Source of the DNA: a virus
Strand: one strand, 5' to 3'
Length of the DNA stretch: 38,439 bases
IMG/VR virus record: IMGVR_UViG_3300023110_000084
Location: 1-38,439 of that record
Position 1 is the first letter of the stretch; each line of letters begins with the position of its first letter. Under the pieces are notes generated by a model. It was given only the letters and a program-made list of their open reading frames with translations, had not been told where the DNA came from and did not search any database. Positions 2,068 to 37,263 of the stretch are shown piece by piece. Both the position numbers and the translations under genes were made by a program.

Positions 2068-3116
2068 TTCTTTTTTCCTGCTTTCATATTAGCACACCAG
2101 TGATACATTTTTTGTTTTTCGCCGCTGCTATTTTTTGCTTTACGTCTTAGTTCAGTTACGCTACCATCACAACTAGCGCCTGCTGCTTTTACACGCCCTG
2201 GTCTGCTTTTGCCTTTTACTTTACCATCAGCAAAGTTTTCTCCCATAACACGTTGTTTAAGAGATTGCCACCAACTTTGATTTTGTTGATTTGTTTTTGT
2301 CTGTTGTTTAGGTTGTTTGTTTTGTCCACCCCAGTTAATTTTATGTGCTAGGCTACCCGGTTCATTTTCGTTAAATGCTGTATCAGCATGTTTCTTAGCA
2401 CTAGCACCATCTGGGTGTTTTGGATTAATACCAACAACTTCGCCGTTTATTAGTTCACTTATATTACTTGCTTTGCCAATTTTGTCAAGCAATTGATGTA
2501 ATGGATCTTCGGGATCATAGTTACCACTTTCGTATCCACTTTTACCTCTTACTTCAGTACGTTTACCTGTTTCACTATCTGTAATATGTAGTACATACAT
2601 ATCATCATCACGTTCTAATTGTAGTTTGTAACCTTCACTAAGTGTTGATTCTGTAAGTGCATTTACTAATTGTGGCACTAGTTCTTTGTCACGTGGTGCT
2701 TCTGGCAAGTCACCTTTTTGTATAGGACGTATGCTTTTAATGTTTGTGTGTTCGTTGTCTTCAAAACGTTTTACAAATTGTTTAACAGGTAGTGCACCAT
2801 CAAAGTCAATCAAGTTGTTGCCTACTTTAACTGCAGCATGGTCTGCAATACCTTTATCGTTTACTAGTACAACAATGTCGCCGCCGTGTATTTGCTGTAA
2901 TGCTTGTGCTACTAGTACACAGCCGCCATCAAACGGGCCGCACTCTACGTTGTCCAGTATGTCATAAACTTCGTCTGCACTTTCTTTAAGATATGGCAAA
3001 CTAAACCACAGTTTGAACCATTCTTCGGTGCCCGGCTTTACTTTGTGCTTACGCTCAATGTCGTGAATACGTTTAGCAGTGTGGCTTATGTTTTCGGCAA
3101 TCTCATTTAGTTTCAT
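2064..3116 (-). CDS. Papain/NlpC-like domain protein, possible virion-internal effector
   Basis: 350 residues from the ATG at 3116. A longer reading from a GTG at 3158 overlaps the upstream gene by 56 bases and is less likely. The N-terminus MKLNEIAENI resembles a prohead-targeting sequence. A domain at about residues 55-110 carries GGC (Cys66), DHA (His93) and LIDFDG (Asp104 or Asp106), the order of a papain/NlpC/transglutaminase-type Cys-His-Asp triad. A Gln/Asn-rich linker follows. The C-terminal module (about 300-350) is basic with paired Cys (GASC, YHWCANMK), a module I associate with marine T4-like phage proteins. Possible roles are a packaged protease or amidase acting on the host, or a head-internal protein. 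Activity is not shown. Confidence 0.6.
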   Translation of the reverse strand: MKLNEIAENISHTAKRIHDIERKHKVKPGTEEWFKLWFSLPYLKESADEVYDILDNVECGPFDGGCVLVAQALQQIHGGDIVVLVNDKGIADHAAVKVGNNLIDFDGALPVKQFVKRFEDNEHTNIKSIRPIQKGDLPEAPRDKELVPQLVNALTESTLSEGYKLQLERDDDMYVLHITDSETGKRTEVRGKSGYESGNYDPEDPLHQLLDKIGKASNISELINGEVVGINPKHPDGASAKKHADTAFNENEPGSLAHKINWGGQNKQPKQQTKTNQQNQSWWQSLKQRVMGENFADGKVKGKSRPGRVKAAGASCDGSVTELRRKAKNSSGEKQKMYHWCANMKAGKKK

Positions 3117-6012: not shown

Positions 6013-6807
6013 TTATGGATCTATAAAGAAGTTCTCAATTTTAATAAATGGTGTTCGATTATCAATGTTAAGCAAAATTTTGCTGGTCACAACATTGATT
6101 GTTGTACCATTATTAACCATCTTTTCAAACATTGGTATAAACGCACTATGTTTAGTATGACACCACACTTTAACAGCACCATATTCACTAGCACAAATAT
6201 ACCAACGAATGTCTTTATGTGTATAAGCAAATACATTTTTTATTTTTAATTTACGTGTATCATAGTCAGTAGGATCTTTAAGTTTGTCGTGTATGTTATT
6301 TGAAAAGTAACTGATATAGTTGTTAAATGGCACTGTACCTAAAATACGTTCCGCTTCTTTTTCTAACTTTTCTTTTGTCCAGTTTTCATTGAGTTGTTGT
6401 ATAGTTGTGTCAACATTAAACTGTAACTCAAGCCATCTTGCTATTCCAATATAACCTTTAATGTCATCATGTCTATTGCGATCTGAATTGTTTTCCTCGC
6501 CTGCCCAATTGTAATCCCAATCTGTTTTGCCATTATAACTTTTTTCTTGAATAAACCGTTGCAATGTTTTACGAAAACTACTGAGTCCTTCTCCGCTTAA
6601 CTTATGCACAAGAAATTCACTACGATAGTATTCCCAGATAGATTTACAGCGTTCTTCACTTACATGTGGATTACTTAATCTAAAAACATCAAAATTACTA
6701 GTTTCTTTGGGTACTGTGGTAAAAGAATATTCATCATTAATTGTATAAGTTTGTGGAGTAATATCTTCTTTCATTTTTGATTGTTTGTATTCTTGTTCAT
6801 AACCCAT
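6013..6807 (-). CDS. Hypothetical protein, 264 residues
   Basis: Starts at the ATG at 6807, which overlaps the uvsE stop as TAATG; a GTG at 6819 is in frame but less likely. A soluble, charged protein with aromatic-rich segments (KTDWDYNWAGEE, HKDIRWYICASEYGAVKVW). No known motif is seen. Coupling to uvsE suggests co-expression. Function unknown. Confidence 0.65.
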   Translation of the reverse strand: MGYEQEYKQSKMKEDITPQTYTINDEYSFTTVPKETSNFDVFRLSNPHVSEERCKSIWEYYRSEFLVHKLSGEGLSSFRKTLQRFIQEKSYNGKTDWDYNWAGEENNSDRNRHDDIKGYIGIARWLELQFNVDTTIQQLNENWTKEKLEKEAERILGTVPFNNYISYFSNNIHDKLKDPTDYDTRKLKIKNVFAYTHKDIRWYICASEYGAVKVWCHTKHSAFIPMFEKMVNNGTTINVVTSKILLNIDNRTPFIKIENFFIDP

Positions 6808-7865
6808 TATGCTGCCCACCCAGTAAACGGATCTTTTTGCATAAAGTATTGCTGATACAATTGTGCACTGGCAAGATTTTTCATTTTTGCTTCTACCATA
6901 ATGTCAAAGTCATCCCAAAAGCTCAATGCCCAATCGTTACATGCTGTGTTCCAGCACATATCACTGTGTGCTCTTAGTTTTCCTTTTTTGTATGAGGATT
7001 CAAGTAGTTTATGCATGTTTGGTTGTATATTTGGTGAAGCATCTGTGAGGTAATCTTCACGGCTAATGCTGTAATGCATAGTAGGGCGAACACCCCGCCA
7101 ACTATCAATAATACGGTTAATTCGTTCGTCATTGTTTTGAATGTATTCTCCTGTTTTAACCCAATGGTGGTGTATGTCTACCACCAACGGTACATGTTTA
7201 GCCAATTCGAGGCTAGCATCGAGTCCCCAGGAATTTTCGTCGTTTTCAATGGTAATACAGTTTCGTGCTTCTGTAGACAGTCTTGGAAGGATGTCTTTGA
7301 TACCGGCTGGACCTCTTTTTCCTGAGATGTGGACATTACATTTGAAGTCTTGCCAATTCTGACCGTAGCCCATCCACCTGATGATATCCGCATGATATTC
7401 AAACTCCTCTATTGAACGTTCGACAACTTCGTCACGATCGGAAGCAAGAACGGTAAACTGACCAGGGTGCATAGACAAGCGTACATCAAGCTCACGTGCA
7501 ATGTTGCCAACATGCGAGTACGCTCGCTCGAGCCGTGCTCTGAGATCTGGTTGCCGATAGAAATAAGCCCAATCACTGTGAGTATAAGCAGGAAGCAAAT
7601 TACTACCAACACGTACCATCCGTAATGCATGTGGTAAAGATCCAACATATCTTACTAGCCTTTCTAGATTGTCTACGTTGTCAAACGCAATCTCATATAA
7701 ACGTTGTTCTGCTACATCACGTGTTTGACGGTTAAGCCAAGTAATAGTAGTACTCCGTTCACTGTATTTACGCTGAATGTCTTCTAACAGCTTTTTAGGT
7801 TGTGTTTGGTCCGGGTGCATGTATTTACATGCAAACCCGATACGCTGAATATTTTGATTAAACAT
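6807..7865 (-). CDS. uvsE: UV damage endonuclease UvsE (UVDE)
   Basis: 352 residues, near full family length. UVDE is a TIM-barrel endonuclease that nicks DNA 5' of UV photoproducts, starting alternative excision repair. Visible metal-site motifs are MHPGQF (His133), NVHISG (His179), ITIENDE (Glu207), VVDIHHHW (Asp230, His233), AHSDMCW (His300) and VEAK (Glu325). The N-terminal IGFACKYMHP matches the family's start. A sigma70-like promoter (TTGACA, 17 bases, TATACT) lies at 7904-7932, suggesting early expression, fitting a role in repairing sunlight damage to phage or host DNA in surface water. It is followed by a coupled unknown gene. Confidence 0.93.
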   Translation of the reverse strand: MFNQNIQRIGFACKYMHPDQTQPKKLLEDIQRKYSERSTTITWLNRQTRDVAEQRLYEIAFDNVDNLERLVRYVGSLPHALRMVRVGSNLLPAYTHSDWAYFYRQPDLRARLERAYSHVGNIARELDVRLSMHPGQFTVLASDRDEVVERSIEEFEYHADIIRWMGYGQNWQDFKCNVHISGKRGPAGIKDILPRLSTEARNCITIENDENSWGLDASLELAKHVPLVVDIHHHWVKTGEYIQNNDERINRIIDSWRGVRPTMHYSISREDYLTDASPNIQPNMHKLLESSYKKGKLRAHSDMCWNTACNDWALSFWDDFDIMVEAKMKNLASAQLYQQYFMQKDPFTGWAA

Positions 7866-7903: not shown

Positions 7904-7932
7904 AGTATAGAGTAATGTGTCTTGGTTGTCAA
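7904..7932 (-). promoter_or_regulatory. Sigma70-like promoter for uvsE
   Basis: Minus strand TTGACA (7927-7932), 17-base spacer, TATACT (7904-7909). The -35 box overlaps the stop codon of the radical SAM gene. The leader is about 30 bases. Confidence 0.65.
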
Positions 7933-9080
7933 GCAATAAAATCATAAAGTCTATATATTTTTTCATTATTTTTTTGTTGTGCAAGTTGTTGAAGAAGCGT
8001 ATCGAGTTGACTTTTATTATATGTTTTTGTGTTTAGTATTTTATCAAACTGTTCTGTCCATGATATACAGCTATTGTACCATCTTTCTGTAATAAACAAG
8101 TCACGATTTTGTTCAGCAAGTTTTTTAATTTTTATTGCAGAATCTGTATACTTGGAATATTCAGGACTCAATATACTGTCACTAATCCAATTACCAGTTA
8201 TCATAACACGTTTGTTGTGTTTGCGTATAAGATCCAACGCCCATTCTAAATATTCAACAACACCGTTTACTGTAAACAAACTTATAGTGGGGCATAGCCC
8301 AATAAGTTCTATACGTTCTTGTAACAGGTATTTTTTAAAGTTTTCTTCGTATGTTTTCCAGTCTAGACCCCATCTCACAAGCTCACTAAGTTCTCCAGTT
8401 GACTCATTACTAAAAATAGTTAAAAGAGACCATCCGCTTGGAGTTGTATTATAAAGTTTAAACAATTTGTCTAGCTGTGCTGCATTTGTATTTCCGTTTG
8501 TCATTAATGATAAGTGCATTTGTTTATCTGTTAAACGGTTATCTTGTATTAACAAATTTAGAAAATTATAAAAGTTTTTGCTGTATGTAACTTCACCTCC
8601 AAGAAAACTTAAAACAAATTCGTTATCTACAGTAGAAAGCCAATCTAAAAATACTTTATAGTTTTCTGTACTTGGTGTTTGCATTTTGGTTTGCAAACCT
8701 TTTTCTTGCGCAATTTTGTGGCTACTTTCTTCATTACAATATACACAACTCATATCACATAAGTTGTCTAACATAATTTCAATAAATTCTACATTGTTGT
8801 GAACATCAGAAAGTGACTTCCACTGATTCATATGTTCTCTGTATGCAGTTCCAGTGTTGTGATAACTTTGCCAGCAGTGATTGCATCCAGAATTTTCTAT
8901 TCCAGATAATAAATCCTGTCTACGTTTAATAATATTACTGCTATTATTAAAAAAATCTACTGATAGCTCACTTGGAAAAGATTCGTATGTTGATTTACAA
9001 CAGTGTCTTAGTTGCTTTCTACTAAAACTTATGTTTAAATCGGTCCATGCTTTGCTACATAGTGTTTTATTGAAATGCAT
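7929..9080 (-). CDS. Twitch/SPASM-like radical SAM protein
   Basis: 383 residues. The radical SAM cluster motif CDMSCVYC (Cys108, Cys112, Cys115) is intact, followed by an SAM-binding LGGEVTYS motif. Extra cysteines in the N-terminal part (Cys8, Cys27-28, and Cys66/Cys69 in SGCNHCW) could hold an auxiliary cluster, an arrangement I associate with twitch-domain radical SAM proteins common in marine phages. The substrate is unknown; candidates include peptide or tRNA modification. It overlaps the upstream RyR-domain gene by 14 bases. Base use is more AT-rich than in uvsE, which may indicate separate acquisition. Confidence 0.8.
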   Translation of the reverse strand: MHFNKTLCSKAWTDLNISFSRKQLRHCCKSTYESFPSELSVDFFNNSSNIIKRRQDLLSGIENSGCNHCWQSYHNTGTAYREHMNQWKSLSDVHNNVEFIEIMLDNLCDMSCVYCNEESSHKIAQEKGLQTKMQTPSTENYKVFLDWLSTVDNEFVLSFLGGEVTYSKNFYNFLNLLIQDNRLTDKQMHLSLMTNGNTNAAQLDKLFKLYNTTPSGWSLLTIFSNESTGELSELVRWGLDWKTYEENFKKYLLQERIELIGLCPTISLFTVNGVVEYLEWALDLIRKHNKRVMITGNWISDSILSPEYSKYTDSAIKIKKLAEQNRDLFITERWYNSCISWTEQFDKILNTKTYNKSQLDTLLQQLAQQKNNEKIYRLYDFIA

Positions 9081-21748: not shown

Positions 21749-22333
21749 TTATTTTACGTCTGGCCACAAATAATTATAAAAATATTCGTTGGACGCATCT
21801 TCTCCAATGTGTGCACTGAGCATTTTACGTGTTTGCGGGTTAGCACGTTGTCCTTCAATGTATGCTTGTTGTTGTGTGGTGTAATTTTCCATGGTCATAT
21901 TAGGTAACCAAGTCAGATATTGTTCCAATACATCAACTGCAATCATCACTTCGTCTACGTTGTTAGGTTTGCAACATACGAAGCTAGGACTAAAGAACCC
22001 GCCCCAATCAGGTACAGGGCGAGGAACACCAATCTCTGGGATGTCGAACGTCTTGCCATTGACGGGAGTAAGATCCAAAAACATGCCAGTAAGATTACCG
22101 CTAATATTGATAACGTCAAAACCATAAATTGGTGCCTCCGAGTTAGAGTATGGCATTACAACTAAGTGTACAATTTCTACTTTGTCAGTTGTGTAATGCT
22201 CAAAGTGTGCCCAACGAAACCGTTCGTTAGACCATTTACGATGATGAAAGCCAAAGTCTTGTACTGGCATTTCATCTTTAAGTTCAAAATTTGATAGTAT
22301 TCTATCAATTATTGGTTTCAGATTGTTGTTCAT
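21749..22333 (-). CDS. Ferredoxin-dependent bilin reductase (PcyX/PebS/PcyA family)
   Basis: 194 residues, shorter than cyanobacterial PcyA (about 245). Family core seen: EIVHLVVMPYSNSEAPIYGF, then DVINISGNLTGMFLDLTPV (with His56 and the conserved Asp73, spaced 17 apart like PcyA His88 and Asp105), a WGGFFSP loop, and the C-terminal AHIGEDASNEYFYNYLWPD. These enzymes reduce biliverdin, using ferredoxin, to phycobilins. PcyX, described from oceanic phages, makes phycoerythrobilin; motif reading cannot separate products. No heme oxygenase is seen in the window. A 7Fe ferredoxin at 36058-36393 could be the electron donor. The gene overlaps the upstream small gene by 29 bases. Confidence 0.85.
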   Translation of the reverse strand: MNNNLKPIIDRILSNFELKDEMPVQDFGFHHRKWSNERFRWAHFEHYTTDKVEIVHLVVMPYSNSEAPIYGFDVINISGNLTGMFLDLTPVNGKTFDIPEIGVPRPVPDWGGFFSPSFVCCKPNNVDEVMIAVDVLEQYLTWLPNMTMENYTTQQQAYIEGQRANPQTRKMLSAHIGEDASNEYFYNYLWPDVK

Positions 22334-22529
22334 CTTCCATCATTTTCTTACATTGTAAGATAACTTTACGTTGAAAAGGCGTGTAATGCTCCCAACGTTT
22401 TGCAAACGGTGTATCCATCTCCGTTAATTCCTCGCCAAGATAACTTAGCAAGTTTGCTAACTCAAAATTGTCACCTGTTTTATAGGTTAAGTTCATCATA
22501 TAACGACCAAGTGCAGGTGCTGAAATCAT
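22305..22529 (-). CDS. Small hypothetical protein
   Basis: 74 residues, helical: YKTGDNFELANLLSYLGEE, then FAKRWEHYTPFQRKVILQCK and an acidic Gln/Asn tail. Coupled by ATGA to the gene upstream and overlapping the bilin reductase start. Not a heme oxygenase by length or motif. Function unknown. Confidence 0.6.
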   Translation of the reverse strand: MISAPALGRYMMNLTYKTGDNFELANLLSYLGEELTEMDTPFAKRWEHYTPFQRKVILQCKKMMEDEQQSETNN

Positions 22530-30869: not shown

Positions 30870-31274
30870 TTATTCCTCATCTATTTCGATTGTTTCCATA
30901 CTTCCATCGTCGTATTCGATTTCCATATATTTTGATCCATCTTCTCTTGTTCTAGTAATTCTACTAATCGGTTCTGGATCTAATTCAACAGTAGGAAGTT
31001 CTGTTTCAACTACTGGTTCTGGTTCTGGCGCAGGTGCTTTGGGTTGTGATATAGGTTTAGGATCACTGATAGCAGTTTCTACTGGAGGCTGTTTTGTATT
31101 TTGATCCGCACGTGCAATTTCTTCTGCTGTAAAACGAACACTACCGTCTGGATTTAATCTATCTCCACGTGCATTCATAAGAACATTACCTACAGCTTTT
31201 GTTGTTTCATTTTTTGCAGCAAGAGCGGCCATATCAATCATTTTGCCTCTTGCTGTTCGCACACTTCTGCTCAT
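30870..31274 (-). CDS. Hypothetical phage protein with conserved N-terminus
   Basis: 134 residues. MSRSVRTARGKMIDMAALAA is a start I recall from uncharacterised T4-like marine phage proteins. A Pro/Glu-rich disordered middle (PKAPAPEPEPVVETELPTVE) leads to a short beta pair (KYMEIEYDDGSMETIEIDEE). The ATG overlaps the DnaE-fragment stop. Function unknown. Confidence 0.68.
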   Translation of the reverse strand: MSRSVRTARGKMIDMAALAAKNETTKAVGNVLMNARGDRLNPDGSVRFTAEEIARADQNTKQPPVETAISDPKPISQPKAPAPEPEPVVETELPTVELDPEPISRITRTREDGSKYMEIEYDDGSMETIEIDEE

Positions 31275-31786
31275 CTAAAGAATTCCTTGTAATCTAATTC
31301 GTATTTAATACTATCTATTTTGTGTACACCTATCAAATATAGAACATAACTAGCAACACTTGATCCACGTCCTACACCCCATACAATGTCGTTTTCACGC
31401 ATTGTGTCGACCAAATAAATCATAAACCTTAATAGGGGCATTAGTCCTCGTTCTTCATATTCGTAGAGTTCTTCCCATACACGATTTTGTACTACTTCAG
31501 GACAAGGCGTTTTTGCTTTTCCTATTACGTACTTAAAAACATTTATATCTTGATATTCTGGAGGCATGTACCAATTTGCATCAATTTCCTTATTGTACTT
31601 ATCCGATCCATCTTCAGGAGTATCTACGTCTATGCTAGTGTCCATTAAAAATAGACTACAAAAATGGTTATATTTGTCAATTGCGCTCGTGTCTGTCATT
31701 GTCACCGTATGTGGAGTTACATCTAGTAGCATCATTTCTACCAGGTCATTTTCTGTAACGATAATTTCGTTATTACTATTCAACAT
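31271..31786 (-). CDS. DnaE-like (DNA polymerase III alpha) fragment protein
   Basis: 171 residues from the ATG at 31786. The C-terminal part, IVWGVGRGSSVASYVLYLIG followed by HKIDSIKYELDYKEFF, matches the GRGSxxxSLVxYxLGIxxIDPLxY..FERFL segment of bacterial PolIII alpha, at the palm entry after the PHP domain. The N-terminal 100 residues do not clearly match. Catalytic aspartates of the palm are absent, so it is not a polymerase. It may be a domesticated fragment that contacts the clamp or replisome. It lies in the operon with the clamp loader. Confidence 0.7.
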   Translation of the reverse strand: MLNSNNEIIVTENDLVEMMLLDVTPHTVTMTDTSAIDKYNHFCSLFLMDTSIDVDTPEDGSDKYNKEIDANWYMPPEYQDINVFKYVIGKAKTPCPEVVQNRVWEELYEYEERGLMPLLRFMIYLVDTMRENDIVWGVGRGSSVASYVLYLIGVHKIDSIKYELDYKEFFR

Positions 31787-32036
31787 CGCCAATATTCAAA
31801 ATGTTATCTTCGTCGGGATCACGATTTTCTTCAATAGCACGTTCACGCCGCTGTTGTTCAGCTTCTAATGCTACTTTAGTACGATACTCTACCATAAGTT
31901 GATCCAACATGTTTTGCATTTGATCAATTAGTTGTGGACTCATACCACTACTCATAGCCTGTGCTACTTTTTGTTTAAGCTCAATTTGTTTTTCAAGCAT
32001 TTGCTCAACTGTCATATCTTCGAAATTTGCAAACAT
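31776..32036 (-). CDS. Small coiled-coil protein
   Basis: 86 residues, Met/Gln/Glu-rich, nearly all helix (MFANFEDMTVEQMLEKQIEL; DQMQNMLDQLMVEYRTKVAL) with an acidic tail. Its last codons overlap the DnaE-fragment start by 11 bases and its ATG abuts the dehydrogenase stop. Function unknown. Confidence 0.62.
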   Translation of the reverse strand: MFANFEDMTVEQMLEKQIELKQKVAQAMSSGMSPQLIDQMQNMLDQLMVEYRTKVALEAEQQRRERAIEENRDPDEDNILNIGDVE

Positions 32037-32845: not shown

Positions 32846-32863
32846 ATTTTGAGGAGAATGACA

Positions 32864-33628
32864 ATGATATCGGACATGAATTTTAGACAGCGGAGCCTTC
32901 TATTCGCTAAACTTGCTAGTATTGCATATAGTGATGATACTAAACAAGTCAAAAAAGATGTAAAAGCATTAGGTTTTACCGAAATAGAATTTTACAACAA
33001 AGCAGGTGCACAAGCATACAGATTCCAAAACAAGGATGATATTGTAATTGCTTGCCGTGGCACACAGCCCAGTGAATTTAATGACATTAAAGCAGATTTA
33101 AAAGCGGCACCAGTTATGGCAGAAACAGTAGGTCGTGTGCATCATGGATTTAAAGCAGAAGTAGACGAGCTTTGGCCAATGGTACTAGAAGATTTACGTG
33201 AGTGTGGAAAAACTCGCAAGGCTTGGTTTTGTGGACACAGCCTAGGTGCTGCTATGACAACTATCATGGCAAGCCGTTGTGAAGATGACCCAGACATGCC
33301 AAACATTGAAGAAGTTTATACATACGGATCACCACGCACAGGTTGGCGTAAATTTGTAAACAGTCTTAACTGTAAACATCAGCGTTGGGTTAACAACAAT
33401 GATATTGTTACACGGGTACCGTTTGCTATTATGGGATACAAACATGATGGCTGCGAACACTATATGGACTCAAACGGAGATTATCGTCCAAACTTAAAAG
33501 GTTTGCGCAGAGTAAAAGATCGTTGGCGTGGAATGTGGATGGGTCTAAAACAAGGCGGAGTTGATAACTTTTCAGATCATTCAATGACAAATTATATTGC
33601 TAATTTAGAAAAGATTCAGGAGGGCTAA
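32864..33628 (+). CDS. Class 3 lipase-like alpha/beta hydrolase
   Basis: 254 residues from the ATG at 32864 (GAGGAG 7 bases upstream). Lipase_3 features: VIACRGTQPSEFND (oxyanion region), FCGHSLGAAM (nucleophile Ser126), NNNDIVTRVP (Asp180) and FSDHSMTNYI (His239), so the triad is complete. No signal peptide or membrane segment. It would hydrolyse lipid esters; release from the cytoplasm could occur at lysis, or it may act on inner-membrane lipids. Alone on the plus strand, with its own late promoter and terminator. Confidence 0.85.
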   Translation: MISDMNFRQRSLLFAKLASIAYSDDTKQVKKDVKALGFTEIEFYNKAGAQAYRFQNKDDIVIACRGTQPSEFNDIKADLKAAPVMAETVGRVHHGFKAEVDELWPMVLEDLRECGKTRKAWFCGHSLGAAMTTIMASRCEDDPDMPNIEEVYTYGSPRTGWRKFVNSLNCKHQRWVNNNDIVTRVPFAIMGYKHDGCEHYMDSNGDYRPNLKGLRRVKDRWRGMWMGLKQGGVDNFSDHSMTNYIANLEKIQEG

Positions 33629-33648: not shown

Positions 33649-34618
33649 ATAGTCCGTTTGGTAGAATAATATAATGTATGGCAAGTACCAGTGCAACACT
33701 AGCACCAAGTCCTACCATCATCTTACCAAAGTCTTTTGCGACTAGTGGGAACACTGATTTGGTTTTCTTTTTACCAAAGTATGTTGCCATTGCTAACTCA
33801 CGACCCGCTAACAAACCTACGAACACCCAGGTTGTCGACATCGGAATGTCGTTGAGTTCTTTGAAGAAGTACAAGCATAACCAATAGAACAAGTCAATCA
33901 GTGTTGCACTACGCACATATCTTGTATTGTGTTTTTCTAGAACAATCTGTTGTATCTTGCCGCCACGCTCTCTAAACATAAAGAACAATCCAGCGACAAA
34001 CACAATGCTGATAAACACCATTAGGTCCACAGGCACTTGTCTTGGTAAGAACACTGCGATGTTTGCTACATCATGTGATAACCAAGTAAACCATAGTCCG
34101 CCTGTAGCTACCCATTGTGCTACACGCCAAAACTTTTTATTGCCTTCGCTTACTGGCTGTGTTTCATCATACCACTTACCAAAGAACTTGTGTATTGCAA
34201 ACCATACTGTATATGCAAATGCGGCTGCAACACCATATCCCATAATTGATTTCATAAGCATCTTCTCTAGCACAAAGGTACTAGCAAACACTGACAGCAC
34301 TAGGAAACTTGTGCTAACTGGCACACCCATTCGTGTCAATAAAACAAGTATGGCAGGTGCGGCTGCGTGATACCATTGCACTTCTTGGAATGGTATTTTG
34401 TTTAGGCGACCATATGAAATATCGCCTCCGTTCATATACCACCCATACCAGAGTGTATATAATAAAACAGCCGAAGCGGCTGCCCATAGTACTTTATAAT
34501 TAAATCGCTCATTATTTGATGCCATCCAAGTACCGAGCGTTTGTACTGAATCGTTTGCTATAACTGCATAGGCAGCAAGCAGGAAGCCAACAAGGCTCCA
34601 CATAGTGAGTAGTTCCAT
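33647..34618 (-). CDS. PiT-family phosphate permease
   Basis: 323 residues with about eight to nine membrane segments. The two inverted PiT signatures are recognisable: VIANDSVQTLGTWMAS near residue 19 (for GANDVANA..G) and WLSHDVANIAVFLPR near 197, each followed by a (V/I)P(V/M)ST motif (GVPVSTSFLVLS and DIPMSTTWVFVGLLAG). PiT proteins carry phosphate with Na+ or H+. It is shorter than host PitA (about 500). A Pho-box-like array lies upstream, so host PhoB may induce it under phosphate limitation. GGAG precedes the ATG. Confidence 0.85.
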   Translation of the reverse strand: MELLTMWSLVGFLLAAYAVIANDSVQTLGTWMASNNERFNYKVLWAAASAVLLYTLWYGWYMNGGDISYGRLNKIPFQEVQWYHAAAPAILVLLTRMGVPVSTSFLVLSVFASTFVLEKMLMKSIMGYGVAAAFAYTVWFAIHKFFGKWYDETQPVSEGNKKFWRVAQWVATGGLWFTWLSHDVANIAVFLPRQVPVDLMVFISIVFVAGLFFMFRERGGKIQQIVLEKHNTRYVRSATLIDLFYWLCLYFFKELNDIPMSTTWVFVGLLAGRELAMATYFGKKKTKSVFPLVAKDFGKMMVGLGASVALVLAIHYIILPNGL

Positions 34619-36054: not shown

Positions 36055-36062
36055 TATTTATG
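36055..36062 (-). promoter_or_regulatory. Late promoter motif CATAAATA
   Basis: CATAAATA on the minus strand, 24 bases upstream of the A-type carrier ATG at 36031, overlapping the ferredoxin stop. Confidence 0.5.
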
Positions 36063-36393
36063 AGCCTGGGCCTGGGTTTTCACTAAAATGTTCCATTTTA
36101 TTTTCAATACCTTCCCAATCGTCAGCATCAGGGAATGGTTCTTTTTGTTCAAAAATAACTGGCCAAAGTTCGCTATATTTTCGATTAAAATCTACCCATT
36201 CTGATGCCCCAGGTGCAGTGTCTGGTTTAATTGCGTCTGCTGGGCATTCAGGCTCGCATACACCGCAATCAATACATTCATCAGGATTAATTACAAGCAT
36301 GTTTTCGCCTTCATAAAAACAGTCTACTGGACAGACAGCCACACAGTCTGTATACTTGCATTTAATACAAGAATCGTTTACGATATATGTCAT
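36058..36393 (-). CDS. fdxA: 7Fe ferredoxin, FdxA type
   Basis: 111 residues. Cysteines C9, C17, C21, C25 and C40, C43, C46, C50 in [19 protein letters not shown] and [14 protein letters not shown] match the [3Fe-4S][4Fe-4S] ferredoxins of Azotobacter FdI/FdxA type, common in Alphaproteobacteria. The C-terminal 50-residue extension ([15 protein letters not shown]) is also typical. It can carry electrons at low potential; the bilin reductase at 21749-22333 and the radical SAM protein are possible clients. Unlike the plant-type PetF ferredoxin of cyanophages. Confidence 0.94.
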
Positions 36394-36730: not shown

Positions 36731-37009
36731 TTAAAATATTCCTAGTAAAAGTTTTGCATCGTCGCTCATTAACTCAGGTCCCCATTGGGGATTGAATGTA
36801 ACATCAACGTTTACACTTTCAATGCCGACGACATTAAAGGCAGCACCACGAACATCATTTACGATGTCATCTGCTGCAGGACAAAACGCACTAGTTAAAC
36901 TCATTGTAATATTACACTTACTTTCTTGAATGTCAATATTATAAATCAATCCTAAGTCATAAATGTTGACACTTATTTCAGGATCATATACTTGCTTTAA
37001 ATTTTCCAC
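36731..37009 (-). CDS. SufT-like (MIP18/DUF59) Fe-S assembly factor
   Basis: 92 residues if started at the GTG at 37009, which overlaps the upstream TAG. No in-frame ATG exists before the conserved core, and the frame opens at a TTG at 37078. Core motifs: VYDPEISVNIYDLGLIYNI, MSLTSAFCPAAD and VTFNPQWGPELMSDDAKLLL, as in SufT/PaaD-type proteins that aid cluster insertion. With the A-type carrier and ferredoxin it forms a small Fe-S module. Confidence 0.85.
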   Translation of the reverse strand: MENLKQVYDPEISVNIYDLGLIYNIDIQESKCNITMSLTSAFCPAADDIVNDVRGAAFNVVGIESVNVDVTFNPQWGPELMSDDAKLLLGIF

Positions 37010-37263
37010 TATTGCATTGTGTATTGTGTTTGTGCTAACATCTTGAATGTCAGCATGTCCTCTTTTTTCTTGAACCAAACTTCTACTCCATGTATGTGTT
37101 TATCATATTTCCATGCGCCATAATCATTACCAAACGTGTCTATTAAAAATTCAGCAAATGAATTATTGTCAAAATAGTCACGTTTTATTGATAGGGTGCA
37201 ATGATAATGACTATTTTGTGTCCAACTTGCACCCCACTGTAAACTTATGCTCAAGTTTCCCAT
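37009..37263 (-). CDS. Small hypothetical protein
   Basis: 84 residues (MGNLSISLQWGASWTQNSHY), with paired His/Cys (HYHCTL) and aromatic-rich strands (WKYDKHIHGVEVWFKKKEDM). It sits 3 bases after the QueD-like stop and overlaps the SufT-like start. Function unknown. Confidence 0.6.
   Translation of the reverse strand: MGNLSISLQWGASWTQNSHYHCTLSIKRDYFDNNSFAEFLIDTFGNDYGAWKYDKHIHGVEVWFKKKEDMLTFKMLAQTQYTMQ

Follow-up and report, generated by a model that had tools for sequence, protein, structure and literature searches.

Ferredoxin-dependent bilin reductases (FDBRs) of phages that infect non-photosynthetic hosts are already known, as are the heme oxygenase cassettes to which they belong. Their role in phages of non-photosynthetic bacteria has been described as enigmatic (PMC11480375). 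The described systems closest to the locus studied here are PcyA of cyanobacteria and cyanophages (PDB 2d1e, 2g18, 4qcd), PcyX, the phage phycoerythrobilin synthase (PDB 5owg), and the freshwater phage FDBR CB_2, a vPcyA/X enzyme also termed 'PcyA*' (PMC11480375). In PcyA, the residues Glu76, His88 and Asp105 are essential (PMC9800206), and Glu76, which is PcyA-specific and missing from PcyX, is needed for 18-vinyl reduction (PMC10151467). CB_2, which has no Asp55, has been shown to produce phycocyanobilin (PMC11480375). We add here a clade of compact, Glu-type FDBRs and a slot exchange with PcyX between related phages.

The window, i.e. the whole stretch of 38,439 bases that was analysed, is the complete IMG/VR virus record IMGVR_UViG_3300023110_000084, which is classed as linear, so that the phage genome is probably larger than this piece of it. 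The gene of interest was recognized by Pfam family PF05996, by alignment, by a structure model with its PDB match and by its place in a tree:

21749..22333, minus strand: compact ferredoxin-dependent bilin reductase (FDBR), 194 aa

The open frame is intact. Its product matches PF05996 (Fe_bilin_red) with E=6.5e-16 and 59.1 bits (cut-off 31), PHROG 7278 'ferredoxin oxidoreductase' with 3e-15, and the solved chains of PcyA (1e-8) and PcyX (7e-8), at 24-26% identity to characterised enzymes. An AlphaFold model, built on an alignment of 35 rows, has a mean pLDDT of 93.8, and its best PDB matches are all FDBRs of alpha/beta/alpha fold (Z up to 22.1). With PcyA all 194 of 194 residues are aligned (Z 22, rmsd 2.2 A), while the match to PcyX has Z 18.7 over 164 residues, in a chain of which 181 residues are resolved. 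As the earlier note had claimed, the gene thus encodes a real FDBR, on which sequence, model and tree agree. The note had also placed His56 and Asp73 like His88 and Asp105 of PcyA, and the alignment bears this out.

Residues were compared in an alignment with phage PcyA, PcyX and PebS and, separately, in one of 104 collected FDBRs. His43, Glu45, Ile54, His56 and Asp73 of the window FDBR correspond to His74, Glu76, Ile86, His88 and Asp105 of PcyA; His56 and Asp73 are common to the PcyA- and PcyX-type sequences collected. The protein hence shares with PcyA the Glu-His-Asp triad, the equivalents of Ile86 and His74 and a fold match over its full length. It differs from PcyA in overall sequence (20-26% identity), in having Gln167 at the position of Lys221, and in the motif PIYGFD in place of P-[IL]-F-G-x-D. 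With PcyX it has in common that it is a phage-borne FDBR of the kind found in phages of non-photosynthetic hosts, and it shares the PIYGFD motif, the active-site His and Asp and the fold; the PcyX of Pelagibacter phage Mosig is 25% identical to it. However, the PcyX-specific Asp55, which is Asp in 57 of 57 PcyX-clade rows of the tree, is replaced by Glu45, the PcyX motif N-P-H-T reads N-P-Q-T, and the window FDBR is about 30 residues shorter, belongs to a separate clade and has no heme oxygenase beside it. The loop ahead of Arg105 is shorter than the loops of both PcyA and PcyX. By its description, CB_2, which makes phycocyanobilin, is similar in being a phage FDBR that stands between PcyA and PcyX without Asp55, but it is accompanied by a heme oxygenase and AlaS, neither of which is in the window record. 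Three phage contigs of 262-280 kb (G050, G484 and G496, with loci L270, L269 and L268) carry AlaS and, at another place in the record, an FDBR, which recalls the published three-gene set. In the 262-kb contig G496 (L268) there is an in-frame TAA inside AlaS, owing to stop-codon reading, an intron or a sequence error.

The phylogeny was computed from 78 FDBRs, PebS having been dropped because of its very long branch. A PcyX branch of 57 rows (support 100/99) does not include the window clade, and the window FDBR also lies outside the cyanobacterial and cyanophage PcyA branch (11 rows, 100/100). Its own clade (100/98) unites it with four phage proteins, L170-L173, which are its closest relatives at 44-52% identity and keep the triad of Glu, His and Asp. 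A search of viral contigs with the single window sequence found no relative; the alignment-based search recovered these four. The window FDBR has a long branch of about 1.0 change per column, so that a relaxed or changed function is possible. In this tree, which is without alphaproteobacterial PcyA, the window clade is joined weakly to PcyA (78/39). A grouping with PcyX is not rejected (AU p 0.48), nor is one with a fourth group, L174-L180 (support 91/87; AU p 0.44). Judged from these sequences, the window FDBR is not a PcyX; its phage lineage stands apart both from PcyX and from the PcyA of cyanobacteria and cyanophages. The protein stays within the FDBR family, but a placement with PcyX is not supported. 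A divergent PcyX that makes phycoerythrobilin despite the Asp-to-Glu change is in our view unlikely. The motifs PIYGFD, R-x-A-H and N-P-x-T, common to the window FDBR and PcyX and not to PcyA, would fit such an enzyme, as does the AU test, but the position outside the PcyX branch and Glu45 in place of Asp55 argue against it. The window clade or L174-L180 may be the published PcyA* group, given that the CB_2 sequence and alphaproteobacterial PcyA are not in the tree.

In the fourth group the position of PcyA Glu76 is Glu in L174 and L180 and Gln in L175-L179. The latter five FDBRs (e.g. L177:2423-3037) adjoin a heme oxygenase and are otherwise intact, and since the structure of a PcyA E76Q mutant has been solved (3i95), an altered product can be predicted for them. 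A search of plasmids for FDBRs gave no match, and a search for alphaproteobacterial PcyA in 385 genomes from the class of one MAG gave very distant matches only. A scan of genome contigs found PcyX-type genes on four MAG contigs; the one that was read, L252, has phage-like gene content and a heme oxygenase, and the four were therefore not counted as bacterial FDBRs.

The gene slot of the window FDBR can be compared with that of a sister phage, G003 (133 kb), which shares the gene order of the window between ClpP and PhoH and has a PhoH 87% identical to that of the window, and with L101 and L102, which are closer than G003 as judged by the NT5C gene (91%). The slot is flanked by:

22305..22529, minus strand: 74-aa ORF, conserved slot flank on the upstream side, sharing 29 bases with the start of the FDBR; 53% identical to its orthologue in G003, 79% to that in L101
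22526..22807, minus strand: 93-aa ORF, conserved slot flank; 58% identical to G003, 60% to L101
21106..21678, minus strand: 5'-nucleotidase (NT5C)-like gene, PF06941, downstream slot flank; 76% identical to G003, 91% to L101

In the same slot G003 carries a full-length PcyX, which belongs to a different clade and is 29% identical to the window FDBR (BLASTP), whereas the genes of the slot region are 53-87% identical between the two phages. This identity of 29% beside more conserved neighbours weakens the idea of a divergent PcyX, to which the presence of a PcyX in the very same slot might otherwise lend weight. L101 and L102 have an unrelated 108-aa ORF there. Different genes have thus come to occupy the slot, among them, in two cases, FDBRs from separate clades, which is replacement or independent gain and not divergence in place. 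The window FDBR and the PcyX of G003 form a clean pair for asking whether the product matters or merely the removal of biliverdin.

Further genes of the window were noted during these comparisons. A class 3 lipase gene (32849-33628, plus strand), among the few genes on that strand, is about 90% identical in G003 and in the nearest collinear relative, G052 (89 kb), where many neighbours are 60-75% identical. A 173-aa ORF (31271-31792, minus strand), conserved in G003 and G052, matches only the NTPase domain of DNA polymerase III alpha (PF07733), and the window DNA polymerase may be split or interrupted there. A UV-damage endonuclease UvdE is encoded at 6807-7865, minus strand (1.9e-44). No tRNA genes were found in the window. 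Its clamp loader is nearest to those of Pseudomonas PA5oct-like jumbo phages, but a similarity of 53% is too low for assigning a host.

The usual neighbour of the FDBRs collected is a heme oxygenase, which lies inside the fetched flank in 84 of the 94 non-cyanophage loci. This neighbourhood does not strictly define PcyX, as some PcyX loci are without it. A well supported PcyX subgroup (L220, L226, L229, L231, L235, L246 and L249), with the motif R-R-A-H-I-D-S-V, lacks a heme oxygenase both in the flanks that were fetched and, on a profile search, in the whole records. In L170-L173 the FDBR directly follows a heme oxygenase gene, overlapping it or nearly so, which ties the window clade to biliverdin. 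The earlier note had proposed to look for a heme oxygenase in the rest of the genome; none was found in the 38 kb of the window record by Pfam, by a six-frame profile of phage heme oxygenases or by alignment search. A hidden copy was rejected on the negative Pfam result and the best profile match of E 0.8; the same Pfam search was positive in 5 of 21 comparable records and hence works. There is likewise no heme oxygenase in the 133 kb of G003.

One could argue that bilin reductase activity has been lost, the gene decaying or having been recruited as a tetrapyrrole-binding protein, since no heme oxygenase lies nearby, the branch is long, the protein is the shortest member and the slot of the nearest relatives is without an FDBR. 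We regard this as improbable: the frame is intact, the catalytic residues are retained, as are the columns that do not vary across the family, and the full-length fold is predicted very confidently.

The reading that we favour, and hold to be fairly probable, is that of a compact FDBR from a lineage apart from PcyX that carries out PcyA-type reduction of biliverdin by a low-potential ferredoxin. Biliverdin IXalpha would bind in the usual FDBR cleft and would be supplied by a heme oxygenase, either that of the host or one that the phage encodes outside the fragment. A reduced ferredoxin, whichever low-potential one is present, would donate single electrons, with Glu45, His56 and Asp73 acting as a putative PcyA-type proton-handling triad. 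Because Glu at the position of Glu76 is tied to 18-vinyl reduction, the predicted product is phycocyanobilin or an 18-ethyl intermediate and not the phycoerythrobilin of PcyX. Against a PcyA-type enzyme stand the identity of 24-26%, Gln167 at the place of Lys221, the shorter loop, the long branch and the lack of a heme oxygenase in the fragment record. The benefit to the phage is likely the removal of biliverdin, which would allow heme breakdown and iron release to continue, and not light harvesting. That FDBRs of two clades occupy one slot suggests that the exact product may not be critical, which fits with biliverdin removal. We tentatively consider, as a possible though doubtful extension, that closely related phages, without a heme oxygenase, exchange in a single slot FDBR clades with probably different products, of phycocyanobilin type in the window and of phycoerythrobilin type in G003. 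If true, selection would act on biliverdin disposal and not on a particular pigment, and the question of what FDBRs do in non-photosynthetic hosts would be answered.

The window further encodes an iron-sulfur block:

36058..36393, minus strand: FdxA-type 7Fe ferredoxin (AvFdI-like), nine Cys, PF11953
35723..36031, minus strand: A-type Fe-S carrier, adjoining FdxA, PF01521, with Cys34, Cys94 and Cys96
36731..37078, minus strand: SufT/MIP18-family Fe-S assembly protein, PF01883 (1e-17)

FdxA matches Azotobacter FdI chains in the PDB (E=6e-42), has all nine Cys as in AvFdI and carries a C-terminal DUF3470 (PF11953, 4e-16). The presence of an FdxA-type ferredoxin, an A-type carrier and a SufT-like protein, as named in the earlier note, is thereby confirmed. 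FdI-type ferredoxins have low-potential clusters, and it is conceivable that the FDBR works together with the Fe-S genes as a unit in which FdxA is its dedicated electron donor. Both genes occur in one phage, and phage-borne donors can be envisaged, considering that the PcyX phage Mosig encodes a 2Fe-2S ferredoxin. G052 runs collinearly with the window as far as position 34,618, where it diverges, and has neither the Fe-S block nor an FDBR; in the window and in G003, FDBR and FdxA are both present. This contrast leans toward a link between the two genes, but it is a single contrast and could be due to chance.

The distribution of the two genes makes a dedicated unit very improbable. About 14 kb with many unrelated genes separate FDBR and Fe-S genes in the window, and in the five other records that contain the pair the spacing is 19, 48, 52, 65 and 96 kb. 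IMG/VR contains at least 598 relatives of FdxA, and among the best 80 the gene lies mostly between clamp loader and PhoH, adjoining replication genes, and not near an FDBR. It is thus a usual gene of the window's phage group. An FDBR is present in 5 of 50 FdxA-bearing records and none is shown in the other 45. Conversely, the C-terminal domain of FdxA is found in none of the 49 other FDBR records, which include contigs of 215, 262, 267 and 280 kb and four isolates, the SAR11 phage Mosig being among these records; a direct FdxA protein search agrees with this domain search and recovers all six known copies. Among contigs of at least 70 kb, compared in order to correct for length, FDBRs are equally frequent with FdxA (5 of 12) and without it (5 of 11, a set that was found via NT5C). 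These records are samples of fragments found via particular seed genes, do not amount to a census, and a gene missing from a fragment need not be missing from the phage. The earlier proposal of a linked electron supply is accordingly not upheld: FdxA gives no sign of a dedicated partnership with the FDBR, and before a ferredoxin gene of such a phage is taken for the electron supply, the distribution of both genes should be checked. It is likelier that the Fe-S genes serve general iron-sulfur supply, for example to a radical SAM protein. This possible client of Fe-S assembly (7929-9080, minus strand) has the motif CDMSCVYC (CxxxCxxC) and scores just under the Pfam cut-off. In a 251-kb phage contig (G017, L263) an in-frame TAG lies inside FdxA, reflecting stop-codon reading, an intron or a sequence error. 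Of 32 records searched for the 2Fe-2S ferredoxin family, 1 had it, that of Mosig, where the protein (MT647606.1, about 2758-3000) is encoded together with PcyX and heme oxygenase and would be a more promising candidate when a donor of electrons to an FDBR is sought among phage genes.
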